This document shows, in pieces, positions 57,713 through 62,340 of a DNA stretch of 64,000 nt. The position numbers and the translations under genes are program-made. The notes under the pieces are model-generated. The model was not told the DNA's origin and did not search any database. It worked only from the letters and a program-made list of their open reading frames with translations. Positions within the stretch are counted from its first letter, which is position 1. Each line of letters opens with the position of its first letter. The stretch comes from Methanospirillum stamsii (GTDB taxonomy: Archaea > Halobacteriota > Methanomicrobia > Methanomicrobiales > Methanospirillaceae): assembly GCF_003173335.1 (NCBI RefSeq), contig NZ_QGMZ01000010.1, positions 76,974 to 140,973 of the forward strand. Reading direction: 5' to 3'.

Positions 57713-57946
57713 TTATCGCTTCAGGTTTTTTCCATACTGCATTCCGGTTCCATCCCGGGGAGGAGTCTGGTTAAACGGACAATCTTCCTGGGGACAATCC
57801 GGATTTGGACACGTTCCAAGGTTCTGGCCTAACTCTCCTCCACTCTGGAGCATCTTTCCATTTCCACCCTGGCCGGCTGCTGATGCCGGGAGTATAAACG
57901 CCAGAGCAATCAGACCTAATATGAGAAAAATTGTTATTCCTTTCAT
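57713..57946 (-). CDS. Small secreted protein with PPRDGTGMQYG motif, paralogue (77 aa)
   Basis: A signal peptide (MKGITIFLILGLIALAFILPASAAG) precedes a short mature part with three Cys (CPNPDCPQEDCPFNQTPPRDGTGMQYG). It is the first gene of the pair; the shared 3' ends give a direct repeat at DNA level (about 57732-57760 and 57457-57485). The regular Cys spacing suggests disulfides or metal binding outside the cell. It is divergent from the HTH-FHA gene. Confidence 0.7.
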   Translation of the reverse strand: MKGITIFLILGLIALAFILPASAAGQGGNGKMLQSGGELGQNLGTCPNPDCPQEDCPFNQTPPRDGTGMQYGKNLKR

Positions 57947-58092
57947 GATTTATCTGCACCTCCTGCAGTGCATACTCTTCCATTAGGCTTTGTGAGATAT
58001 AAACGGACAAAATGGGACTGGTTCCCCCCCTGAACCGGTTGGTTACAAGAGGGTAGACATTGATATTGACCGGCCGCCAATGAACAAGTGAG

Positions 58093-58887
58093 ATGATACA
58101 TGTGAATCCGGATAAACCAGATGACCGGACGATCCTTACCAGTTCAGATCAGGAATTTATTTCTGAACTCTCAGAATATCTCGATGTTCTTGCAAGTCCC
58201 ATCCGTCTTCAAATACTCTCATATGTCGGAACCAGGCCCCGGACAGTCAGACAGATCTCACATGAGATTAAAACAAGTTATGAGAATACCAAAAAGCACC
58301 TGAATAAACTGTTATCACTGGGTCTGATACAAAAAGAGATAGGGGTTTCAGATGAACCTGCAAACCAGGGTCAGCCGGTGTTCTATTATATTCTCATTCC
58401 CGATGCGTTAAAACATGCAGCAAACAATCTTACCATCTTTACCTCGGTAACAGGAAGTAATATTCCGGATTTATCAGAGCGGGCTATACAGGTAAAAACC
58501 GGATTGCACAGCATCCTCCCATCATCCGGACCCGGACTTGTTATTACGAGCGGTTCACAGACTGGAGATGTATTTGAATTAACAGAAAATGTCTACCGGA
58601 TTGGACGGGTAGAAGAGGGATGGGACGGGATCTCTTTGGAACCTGCAATACTGCTCAATGACGGGTATCGATCGGTCAGCCGGGTATCACGTCCCCATGC
58701 ATGGCTTCGAATACAGTCAGGATTCTGGACGATTTCAGAAGGTAACAGTAAAGGAGGGACGTATGTAAATGGTAAACCCGTGTCTCATGACCCCGTGGTG
58801 CTTACAGACGGAGACCATATTGAACTCTCACCCGAATCACTGGGAGTGGCGTTTATCTTTCGTTCAGGAAAAACCGATAATTCATGA
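58093..58887 (+). CDS. ArsR-type HTH protein fused to FHA domain (264 aa)
   Basis: The N-terminal half is an ArsR-like winged helix (LDVLASPIRLQILSYVGTRPRTVRQISHEIKTSYENTKKHLNKLLSLGLI). The C-terminal half is an FHA domain: YRIGRVEEGWDGISL, SVSRPHAWLRI-like core VSRVSRPHA, GGTYVNGKPV and LTDGDHIELSPE. FHA domains bind phosphothreonine. The next gene, overlapping by 4 bp, is a Ser/Thr kinase. The pair suggests that phosphorylation controls, or is read by, this DNA-binding protein (inference). The fusion of ArsR HTH with FHA is uncommon. Confidence 0.88.
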   Translation: MIHVNPDKPDDRTILTSSDQEFISELSEYLDVLASPIRLQILSYVGTRPRTVRQISHEIKTSYENTKKHLNKLLSLGLIQKEIGVSDEPANQGQPVFYYILIPDALKHAANNLTIFTSVTGSNIPDLSERAIQVKTGLHSILPSSGPGLVITSGSQTGDVFELTENVYRIGRVEEGWDGISLEPAILLNDGYRSVSRVSRPHAWLRIQSGFWTISEGNSKGGTYVNGKPVSHDPVVLTDGDHIELSPESLGVAFIFRSGKTDNS

Positions 58888-60125
58888 AAACCACCATTTT
58901 TCCACCAGCAAATACGATTGCAGATAAAAAACACATCTCCGCCGGAATAGGTAATATTCTAAGCCTCATCCTTGCTGTGAATTACCTCCTCGCTTTTGTA
59001 CTCCTCCTTTCTACATCTGTGCATCATGGACATGGGGGAGGAATGGGAGCCGGGCCGGGGAATGCAATCAATCTCTATATGCCTTCGTTTTTGATACTTT
59101 TCCTTCTCCTTATCCTGTTTCACCTCATCTCTCTCTTTCAGGTTCGTCTTCCTGTCCGGTTGATAGTAGTAATCGGCTTTGGTCAGGTAATATCAGGGAC
59201 ACTGGCATTAGGTCTGTTATTATTCTCCCGTCAATCACTCAGTCTTCTTCAGACGGTATACCCGGGCACGACGCTTCTTATCATTTCATTGGCACTATCT
59301 ATTCTGAGCGGAATGGTAATGATCATAAAGCAGGTCAGACATGGACATTTTTTCGAGATAAAATCTGATTCAAGGAATATTTCCGCATTTCCTCTCCCCA
59401 TGAACAGATATAAAAATGTCCGGCTCATTGGTGAGGGCGGAGTAGGGGCTGTCTGGTATGCAGAACGCATCGGAGATGGAGTTCCGGTGGTTGTTAAGGT
59501 TCCAAGAAGAGATGATGAAAAGACCGGAATGTCATTTATGCAGGAGATAAATATCTGGAAGGATCTGGAACATACGCATATTGCACGGGTTTTTTCGGCT
59601 AATATCCTTCCGGTTCCTTATATCGAGATAGAATATCTCCCCGGATCAGTTGCAGAACTGAATACGCCGGTGCAGTTGGAGCAGGCATTAGGGATTATCA
59701 GAGGTCTGGTCTCTGCTCTCATGTATGCCCATGCAAGGGGAGTAATTCACTGCGATATAAAACCGACAAACATCCTGTTAACCGCGGAAGGAATCCCAAA
59801 ACTTACCGATTGGGGTCTTGCCCGGTCAGGTTCATCCCGATGGTCGGTAGAAGGATTTTCTCCAACATATGCATCTCCGGAACAACGAAAAAGTCATCCG
59901 GAGTGCAAATTTTCAACAGACATCTGGCAGACCGGGATGGTATTTGCTGAACTTCTGACCGGCAAAGCAGATATTCCTTCAGGTAAAGAACCGGTATTTC
60001 TGACAGAAAAGGGAAGTTTAATCCTTTCTATCTTACAAAAGTGCATGGCAATCGATCCAACTGAGAGATACCCATCAGTTCAGGCACTCTCCGATGACCT
60101 CTCTCATATCATCATCAGGGAATAA
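58884..60125 (+). CDS. Membrane-anchored Ser/Thr protein kinase (413 aa)
   Basis: The N-terminal 150 residues hold about four membrane helices, with a short His/Gly loop (HHGHGGGMGAGPG). The cytosolic part is a Hanks-type kinase: Gly loop GEGGVGAVWYAE, ATP Lys205 (VVVKVP), catalytic Asp291 in HCDIKPTN, metal Asp309 in DWG, and SPEQ in the activation region. All key residues are present; HRD and DFG are HCD and DWG. It is coupled by a 4-bp overlap to the HTH-FHA gene, a likely substrate or reader. A decayed copy of its 3' end lies at 60716-60921. Confidence 0.9.
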   Translation: MKTTIFPPANTIADKKHISAGIGNILSLILAVNYLLAFVLLLSTSVHHGHGGGMGAGPGNAINLYMPSFLILFLLLILFHLISLFQVRLPVRLIVVIGFGQVISGTLALGLLLFSRQSLSLLQTVYPGTTLLIISLALSILSGMVMIIKQVRHGHFFEIKSDSRNISAFPLPMNRYKNVRLIGEGGVGAVWYAERIGDGVPVVVKVPRRDDEKTGMSFMQEINIWKDLEHTHIARVFSANILPVPYIEIEYLPGSVAELNTPVQLEQALGIIRGLVSALMYAHARGVIHCDIKPTNILLTAEGIPKLTDWGLARSGSSRWSVEGFSPTYASPEQRKSHPECKFSTDIWQTGMVFAELLTGKADIPSGKEPVFLTEKGSLILSILQKCMAIDPTERYPSVQALSDDLSHIIIRE

Positions 60126-60468: not shown

Positions 60469-60994
60469 GGTCAAATGATACAGTATATATTAGATCTTAA
60501 TCATAGATAATAGATCGGATAATCCCATTTAATTTAATATTTAAAATAAATAGATGTGATTAACCCTTATTTATGAGTGTTTTTGTAATCTACGTAAAAA
60601 TACAAAAAATAGGAATAAAGATCACATTCATCAGTAGAATTAATCAACCGATTAGAGGTATCTGCGATGAAATCATCCATTATCCGGAGATATTTTTTCG
60701 ATATCCCTTTTTTGAACCTCATGGCAGATAGATATGGTATTTGCTGACCTTCCGACCGAAAAAGGAAGTAGCATCTTTTCTATCTTATAAAAGTGCCATG
60801 CAGTGGGTCCAACTGATAGATATCAATCTGTTCAGGTACTCACCAATAATCTCTGCCTCATCTCAAAATCAGGAAATAATTGAATTGCATATCCCCTAAA
60901 ACCAGAAAGTTCAGGGATGTAACCCCCCTGTTTTGAAAGTTTATATCTCTTGAGAATGTATAGATGATTATCCACCAGACAGGCGGTATGCATC
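60469..60994. other. Region without intact gene; holds kinase relic
   Basis: The left 240 bp are AT-rich and hold the promoter of the gene at 60468. From 60716 to 60921 lies a degenerate copy of the 3' end of the kinase gene (listed separately). No intact coding frame is seen. Confidence 0.5.
60716..60921 (+). pseudogene. Decayed duplicate of Ser/Thr kinase 3' end
   Basis: ATGGTATTTGCTGACCTTC, then TTTTCTATCTTATAAAAGTG, CCAACTGATAGATATC and AATAATTGAATTGCATATCC match the kinase sequence at about 59937-60162, including about 35 bp beyond the kinase stop codon. Frameshifts and stops prevent translation. It shows that a segment of this locus was once duplicated in direct orientation. Confidence 0.75.
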
Positions 60995-61567
60995 ATGAAA
61001 AAAATTATTGTGCTCCTCATTCTTCTCCTTGCATCCCTGGTAATTATCCTCCCCCTATCTGCTGCCGGACAGGGGAATGGAAACAGATTTGTAGATAATA
61101 TGAATCTGACCCTTCCAGAGCCGGATACCTACAACCTGACTGATATTGAAGTTTTAGATCTCCTCTTCATCAGAGAAGAAGAACAGATGGCACATGATCT
61201 CTATAGAGTATGGTATGATATGTATTCTATTCCGGTATTTGAGAATATTGCAGATGCTGAAGAGACACATGCCAGTGAAGTGCAATTTTTACTTGACAGG
61301 TACCAGGTTCCTTCTGACATGATTGGAAATCTTTCATCAGGCTATAGTAACCCGGATATCCGGACATTGTCTGAAGAACTGGCAGAACAAGGAAAACTGT
61401 CGCTGACTGATGCACTAAAAGCCGGAGTATCTATCGAAGAAACAGATATTGCAGATCTCGATAAAGCAATTGCAAACACCAGCAAACCGGATATTATTCT
61501 GGTTTACACGAACCTCCGGAGCGGGTCGGAAAATCACTTAAGTGCATTTACCAGGCAACTCACTTAA
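60995..61567 (+). CDS. Secreted DUF2202 ferritin-like protein (190 aa)
   Basis: A signal peptide (IIVLLILLLASLVIILPLSAAG) is followed by a helical domain with FIREEEQMAHDLYRVWYDMY, FENIADAEETHASEVQFLLDRY and a late Glu/His pair (RSGSENHLSAFTRQL). Repeated ExxH pairs are the metal ligands of ferritin-like four-helix bundles, and DUF2202 belongs to that group. It probably binds iron outside the cytoplasm; activity is unknown. Confidence 0.85.
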   Translation: MKKIIVLLILLLASLVIILPLSAAGQGNGNRFVDNMNLTLPEPDTYNLTDIEVLDLLFIREEEQMAHDLYRVWYDMYSIPVFENIADAEETHASEVQFLLDRYQVPSDMIGNLSSGYSNPDIRTLSEELAEQGKLSLTDALKAGVSIEETDIADLDKAIANTSKPDIILVYTNLRSGSENHLSAFTRQLT

Positions 61568-61827: not shown

Positions 61828-62340
61828 ATGAAAAAAGTAATAATACTGCTTTTCCTTTGCTTTATCGTAGTAATGGTGCAGGGAAGTGATTCTTCCGGCA
61901 CAAGTGATACCAAAAGGCTGGTTGACTACCAATTAGACAGGTTTAACAAAACACCTGATTTAATCGATACTGAACTTGAACGATTCAATAAAACACCAAA
62001 ACCTATTGATATAGAAATGGAAAGAATGAACAAGTCACCTGAGTTCATTGATACTGAACTTGAAATTCTCAATAAAACACCAAAACCAATTGATATAGAA
62101 ATGGAAAGAATGAACACGTCACCTCAATTCATTGATACAAAACTTGAAATTCTCAATAAAACACCAAAACCCATTGACATAGAAATGGAAAGAATGAACA
62201 AGTCACCTCAGTTCGTTGATACAGAACTTGAAATTCTCAATAAAACACCAAAACCCATTGACATAGAAATGGAAAGAATGAACACGTCACCTCAGTTAGT
62301 TGATACCGAACTCTACCGATTTAATAATACTCCATACTGA
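61828..62340 (+). CDS. Secreted protein of ten 14-residue repeats (170 aa)
   Basis: A signal peptide (MKKVIILLFLCFIVVMVQGS) and a short linker are followed only by 14-residue repeats of type DTELEILNKTPKPI / DIEMERMNKSPQFI, ten units up to the last codon. Asn-Lys-Thr/Ser-Pro recurs in nearly every unit, and acidic and hydrophobic positions alternate, which would suit a solenoid or amphipathic helix-turn array. NKT/NKS/NTS sites resemble N-glycosylation sequons (NxS/T), although Pro follows them. No family is recognised. Confidence 0.75.
   Translation: MKKVIILLFLCFIVVMVQGSDSSGTSDTKRLVDYQLDRFNKTPDLIDTELERFNKTPKPIDIEMERMNKSPEFIDTELEILNKTPKPIDIEMERMNTSPQFIDTKLEILNKTPKPIDIEMERMNKSPQFVDTELEILNKTPKPIDIEMERMNTSPQLVDTELYRFNNTPY
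61924..62340 (+). repeat. Ten tandem 42-bp repeats in coding sequence
   Basis: Units begin every 42 bp from 61924 (61966, 62008, 62050, and so on to 62302). Pairs of units form an 84-bp higher-order repeat in the middle, where DNA identity is highest. The outermost units have diverged most, the usual sign of unequal exchange in the centre. Confidence 0.95.

Follow-up and report, generated by a model that had tools for sequence, protein, structure and literature searches.

To our knowledge, the route from archaeal Ser/Thr kinases to transcription is largely open, and a gene pair of Methanospirillum stamsii is a candidate for such a route. In the 64,000-nucleotide stretch of DNA analysed here (the window), a gene for a protein with a winged helix and an FHA domain, which we call the HTH-FHA regulator, is followed directly by a gene for a membrane kinase. 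An earlier reading made from the sequence alone had proposed that the two form a one-step connection from the membrane to the promoter. We compared both genes and the DNA around them with their relatives in 150 genomes of the order Methanomicrobiales. The features of the locus are listed in Table 1.

Table 1. Features of the HTH-FHA/kinase locus, in window positions
Feature	Position	Strand	Remarks
Second small secreted Cys/His/Gly-rich protein, 104 aa	57385..57699	-	13 bp behind the first
Small secreted Cys-rich protein, 77 aa, CPNPDCPQEDCPFNQTPPRDGTGMQYG	57713..57946	-	divergent from the pair; candidate target
Operator-like repeat GGTT-N9-AACC-N4-GGTT, GGTTCCCCCCCTGAACCGGTTGGTT	58020..58044	+	between the divergent genes
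HTH-FHA regulator, 264 aa	58093..58887	+	intact ORF, Pfam
Parts of the regulator (residues)			N-tail 1-19; ArsR-type winged helix ~20-101; linker helices 105-141; FHA ~148-257
Codon of Thr13, candidate phosphoacceptor	58129..58131	+	Thr in 80/80 homologues
Membrane Hanks-type Ser/Thr kinase, 413 aa, four membrane helices	58884..60125	+	ORF, Pfam, hydropathy
Second operator-like site, one mismatch, GGTTACATCCCTGAACTTTCTGGTT	60900..60924	-	70 bp before the DUF2202 gene
Secreted DUF2202 protein, candidate second target	60995..61567	+	Pfam, repeat upstream

Domains of the regulator and the kinase

Both open reading frames are intact and share a 4-bp overlap, ATGA. In the regulator, a Pfam scan identified an ArsR-type HTH_5 domain at residues 35-81 (E 1.9e-8; 34.5 bits, cut-off 22) and an FHA domain at residues 195-245 (E 1.9e-10, above the curated cut-off). 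It was found that G171, R172, R197, H202 and N226 of the FHA domain are invariant in 80 homologues, and the phosphothreonine-binding motifs GR (G171 R172), SxxH (S199xxH202) and NG (N226) are all present. The Asn of the SxNGT motif of FHA domains usually touches the backbone of the phosphopeptide; since this residue is replaced by Gly in 71 of the 80 regulators, their binding of a phosphopeptide may be weak or altered. In a structure search the best fold matches of the FHA domain were phospho-OdhI (2kb3) and GarA, ArsR-like folds were also among the matches of the regulator, and the profile of the HTH-FHA family additionally matched EmbR (2fez, in the FHA domain), pThr22 GarA and DgcB. Assignment to the ArsR/SmtB metalloregulators was rejected (HTH_metalloreg, 28.7 bits; cut-off 55). 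Given this missed cut-off and the complete lack of Cys in the window protein, metal sensing by the regulator itself was rejected as well.

The second protein carries a Pkinase domain at residues 176-406 (E 4.7e-32, above the curated Pfam cut-off). Its membrane segments start near residues 25, 69, 93 and 130 according to hydropathy, and AlphaFold placed helices at 12-43, 66-84, 91-114 and 128-152, in a model of poor quality (mean pLDDT 56). K205, H289/D291/N296 and D309 were invariant in 80 kinase homologues, E221 was Glu in 79 of them, and the usual DFG read DWG in all 80. The Pkinase fold and the Lys, Glu, HxD, Asn and DFG Asp of a Hanks-type Ser/Thr kinase were thus all found. What had been described from the sequence alone, that is, the 4-bp overlap, an FHA domain joined to a winged helix and a complete Hanks-type kinase behind four membrane helices, was therefore borne out. 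We also considered a PASTA kinase of the PknB/StkP kind and rejected it, as the NCBIfam model PknB_PASTA_kin gave 114.5 bits against a cut-off of 450 and no PASTA domain appeared in the Pfam scans.

The extracytoplasmic loop between the first two helices of the kinase (about residues 45-65) is rich in His and Gly. In most orthologues of the window type it is rich in His, Met and Gly, for example HHGHGGGMGAGPG, and this composition suggests that the loop might bind metal. Reading the kinases of 80 pairs in full, we found that the catalytic part is conserved and the N-terminal part varies: besides the four helices of the window type there were kinases with one or two helices and an outer domain of 70-130 residues, with a signal peptide and about five helices, with large outer domains and several helices, and with a large outer domain and a single helix. 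Pfam identified PEGA in one of these outer parts and NosD-type beta-helix domains in others. The right-handed beta-helix of the NosD type in the kinases of loci L163 and L178 is an unusual sensor for a Ser/Thr kinase.

Pairing, distribution and co-evolution

The HTH-FHA protein was found in at least 98 of the 150 genomes and in at least 29 of the 35 genera of the order, the kinase in at least 100 genomes. Among the 146 HTH-FHA matches listed, from 98 genomes, 131 were followed by the kinase in the same orientation, no more than 3.5 kb further on, and several of the 15 unpaired ones sit at contig ends. This pairing is far beyond chance. The pair of the window type was present in 8 of 11 Methanospirillum relatives, so that the expectation of a pair conserved in other archaea clearly held, with the family confined to the order: a profile scan of 295 genomes across the phylum gave no full-length member outside it, and four out-of-order matches covered the winged helix alone.

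In addition, the distance matrices of regulators and kinases correlated at 0.80 for the true pairs. When partners were swapped within genomes, which was done only in those holding several pairs, the correlation averaged 0.57 and reached at most 0.76 in 2000 trials. The true value exceeds all the swaps, so the co-evolution signal argues for cognate pairing over and above species history.

The genus also commonly has a second, paralogous pair, whose kinase is larger. In the genome studied here this pair lies at C56:140113-142544 and is followed by a secreted or membrane protein and an operon for an ABC transporter of the MacB/FtsX type, a linkage kept in three relatives of the genus; the whole locus (L008) spans C56:140113-146757. 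Another locus of this genome (L009, C10:226520-232359) holds three large kinases in tandem, with open frames of 697-853 aa, and no HTH-FHA match was found beside them. Four genes for PP2C-type phosphatases are present elsewhere in the genome; no phosphatase gene is encoded with the pair.

A conserved threonine in the N-terminal tail

The tail of the regulator is variable around Thr13, which is preceded by 4-28 residues in the different homologues, and the six columns before it have entropies of 2.7-3.6 bits; the column of Thr13 itself has zero entropy. The tail is predicted to be disordered, with residues 1-15 below a pLDDT of 50 in an AlphaFold model built from four sequences only, and the nearest winged-helix relatives that lack an FHA domain have no comparable tail. 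Ser never substitutes for Thr13 in the 80 homologues. FHA domains prefer phosphothreonine over phosphoserine, so the absence of Ser fits a ligand of such a domain. We therefore regard Thr13 as a candidate phosphosite that the regulator's own FHA domain would read.

The FHA domain could instead bind a phosphothreonine of the autophosphorylated kinase, for example in the activation segment or the juxtamembrane part, and the regulator would then be held at the membrane or docked there for phosphorylation elsewhere. Such docking has reportedly been proposed for EmbR and PknH, and it would agree with the strict one-to-one pairing, with the co-evolution and with S326 near the end of the activation segment, which is Ser or Thr in 80 of 80 kinases. 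However, the activation-segment columns of W320 and S321 are mixed across the same kinases, whereas the regulator has Thr13 without exception, and the invariance of the tail Thr would be left unexplained. We consider docking on the kinase rather unlikely.

A structural role of Thr13 is conceivable because its distance to Tyr29 in the winged helix is fixed at 16 residues in all 80 homologues. The residue following Thr13 is hydrophobic in 79 of them, and the T-I-L segment might pack on the winged-helix dimer. The regulator would in this case be phosphorylated elsewhere or never, and the kinase would still control it through another site or a partner. Disorder of the tail in the four-sequence model, the lack of a tail in the FHA-less relatives and the strict exclusion of Ser, as expected of an FHA ligand, all argue against such packing, and we judge it to be unlikely as well.

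An operator-like repeat and its neighbouring genes

The repeat between the divergent genes falls inside the region 57947-58092, where binding of the HTH protein had been suggested, 48 bp before the start of the regulator and 73 bp before that of the divergent gene. Counting of inverted repeats in the upstream regions of 80 pairs found AACC-N4-GGTT in 14, whereas no word in shuffled sequences exceeded six. The iterated unit is GGTT-N9-AACC with 4 bp between units, that is, a period of 21 bp, and two full units are present in several species. With at most one mismatch, the repeat occurred in 13 of the 80 upstream regions and in none of the shuffled ones, nor did the reversed pattern occur there; it also occurred in 12 downstream regions. 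Nine loci of the genus together contained 14 such sites, compared with 0.35 expected.

In the 150 genomes, the exact 12-base repeat gave 124 matches, the reversed pattern 19. For thirty of the exact matches a pair is no more than 2 kb away (0.31 such matches were expected). Merging of overlapping matches leaves about 23 sites, spread over 22 genomes, 8 genera and 4 families. Many of them stem from related species and cannot be counted as independent, but their spacers differ widely while the half-sites hold. These data make GGTT-N9-AACC-N4-GGTT a candidate operator of the HTH-FHA regulator, and family members that have no repeat nearby may use other sites.

Could the repeat be the site of another order-wide regulator that lies near the pairs by coincidence? 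Most exact matches (94 of 124) are found beyond 2 kb of any pair, and ten belong to a family (f6) that almost lacks the HTH-FHA gene. Against this, a pattern of 12 bases should give scattered chance matches, the enrichment beside the pairs is about hundredfold and extends over four families with diverged spacers, and the putative DNA-reading helix of the regulator, TSYENTKKHL, is nearly invariant, which fits a shared site. We regard ownership of the repeat by another regulator as quite improbable.

Two other inverted repeats were rejected as operators. GATCCG-N4-CGGATC was set aside as it occurred at five closely related loci only, and ACCGC-N4-GCGGT because it is local to the genus and has not been retained in the window. 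The latter motif is found close to where translation of the divergent small gene starts (57947-57975; orthologues L124-L130), and in L129 and L130 its arms have changed yet still pair.

In the genus, the divergent gene for a small secreted Cys-rich protein keeps its place upstream of the pair, with sequences of the kind CPNPDCPQ-DCP-NQTPPRDGTG, and is followed by a second, similar gene; from their spacing in the window the two are probably on the same transcript. An exact repeat precedes the DUF2202 gene of a relative (L127). Two other families have the repeat at the end of the kinase gene or shortly after it, before genes for small secreted Cys-rich proteins. One of these proteins, near locus L137, carries CPNNGVRPLDGTGFKHG, which is the same sequence kind as in the divergent protein of the genus. 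In genome G157 the small Cys-rich gene and the pair sit on separate contigs, and the small gene nevertheless keeps its repeat. In L125 and L126 the repeat stands before the genes of a P-type cation ATPase and of a DUF4405 protein. Taken together, the genes preceded by the repeat suggest a candidate regulon related to the envelope or to cations.

We also noticed a 35-codon stretch at 60752-60856 (+), 60% identical to residues 373-407 of the kinase and surrounded by stops. It is what is left of a second copy of the kinase that has decayed, and it lies directly before the operator-like site and the DUF2202 gene. Further on, positions 61828-62340 encode a secreted protein built of the short repeated unit FNKTPKPIDIEMERMNKSPQFIDTELE, for which no convincing Pfam family was found.

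Comparison with known systems

The closest analogue is PknH-EmbR of Mycobacterium tuberculosis, and the archaeal pair would work in a similar way. Both combine a membrane Hanks-type kinase with a DNA-binding protein that carries an FHA domain, and phosphorylation of EmbR by PknH enhances its promoter binding (PMC6213207). EmbR has a DNA-binding domain of the OmpR type (PMC6213207), whereas the winged helix of the archaeal regulator is of the ArsR type, lies N-terminally and comes with linker helices. The archaeal pair also differs in its order-wide one-to-one operon, its many sensor types, the invariant Thr of the N-tail and the shared DNA repeat. Membership of the EmbR family was rejected, as the Pfam scan detected neither an OmpR-type nor a bacterial transcriptional activator domain in the regulator.

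In OdhI, GarA and DgcB, the FHA domain recognises the phosphorylated threonine of the protein's own N-terminal tail (PMC6733907). The archaeal regulator resembles them in its FHA fold and in having, ahead of it, a flexible N-terminal tail whose Thr is conserved. However, those proteins control enzymes and not DNA, and in the archaeal regulator the tail motif is T-[ILV] and a winged helix stands between tail and FHA domain.

Among archaea, the FHA protein ArnA, with ArnB and the Hanks-type kinases ArnC and ArnD of Sulfolobus, acts on gene expression (PMC10470591, PMC4858521). DNA binding was not detectable for ArnA, which contains a Zn-ribbon (PMC10470591), and it works with a vWA partner and without a winged-helix fusion, unlike the HTH-FHA fusion described here. 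The Pfam scan found neither a Zn-ribbon nor a vWA domain in the pair, and membership of the Arn network was rejected.

The arrangement resembles two-component systems in that a sensor kinase with an exchangeable outer part is encoded in one operon with its cognate DNA-binding partner. Phosphothreonine and FHA would here replace the histidine kinase and the receiver domain; neither of these domains was detected in either protein by Pfam, and the pair was not counted as a two-component system. We found no description of the archaeal pair in the open-licence literature, a scope in which an earlier mention may have been missed.

A possible membrane-to-promoter route

It seems fairly probable to us that the two genes form a phospho-signalling system on Ser/Thr, operating in the manner of a two-component system. 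The genes, their pairing, the conserved residues and the repeat with its location were observed directly. The kinase would sense a condition of the envelope through its exchangeable N-terminal part, here the four helices with the short His/Gly-rich outer loop, and would phosphorylate its co-encoded partner, most likely at Thr13 of the flexible tail. The FHA domain would then bind this phosphothreonine in cis or on a neighbouring dimer, as in OdhI/GarA and DgcB, and the contact would change the cooperative occupancy of the iterated GGTT-N9-AACC repeat. In this way the operon could control itself and envelope genes, namely those of the small secreted Cys-rich proteins and the DUF2202 protein and, in relatives, of the P-type cation ATPase. 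The PP2C phosphatases encoded elsewhere could reset the system.

The one-step route proposed earlier is thus strengthened in part: it gains the co-evolution, the invariant Thr13 and a repeat within the divergent region, while the signal, phosphotransfer to the regulator, binding by the FHA domain and to DNA, and the direction of regulation are what we infer. That the two genes are conserved neighbours without a direct functional link, with a kinase that targets unrelated proteins and an ordinary one-component regulator, would agree with phosphotransfer between them being our own deduction, but is very improbable in view of the order-wide pairing, a co-evolution beyond within-genome swaps and the FHA domain in the partner.

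More tentatively, the whole order may use one family of such systems, in which swappable sensors drive kinases that phosphorylate the N-tail Thr, and links between FHA and phosphothreonine of neighbouring dimers control the cooperative loading of the operator with its 21-bp period. One conserved output pair is combined with outer parts that can be exchanged (PEGA, NosD-type beta-helix, multi-helix and four-helix), which parallels two-component systems. Kinase, candidate substrate, candidate phosphosite, DNA site and target genes are available together, which makes the whole route directly testable, and the family occurs in organisms with many sequenced relatives. By its use of phosphothreonine and FHA chemistry, the family would be a threonine-based counterpart of the bacterial two-component systems and, if this is true, would add another kind to the sensor-regulator pairs in wide use among prokaryotes.
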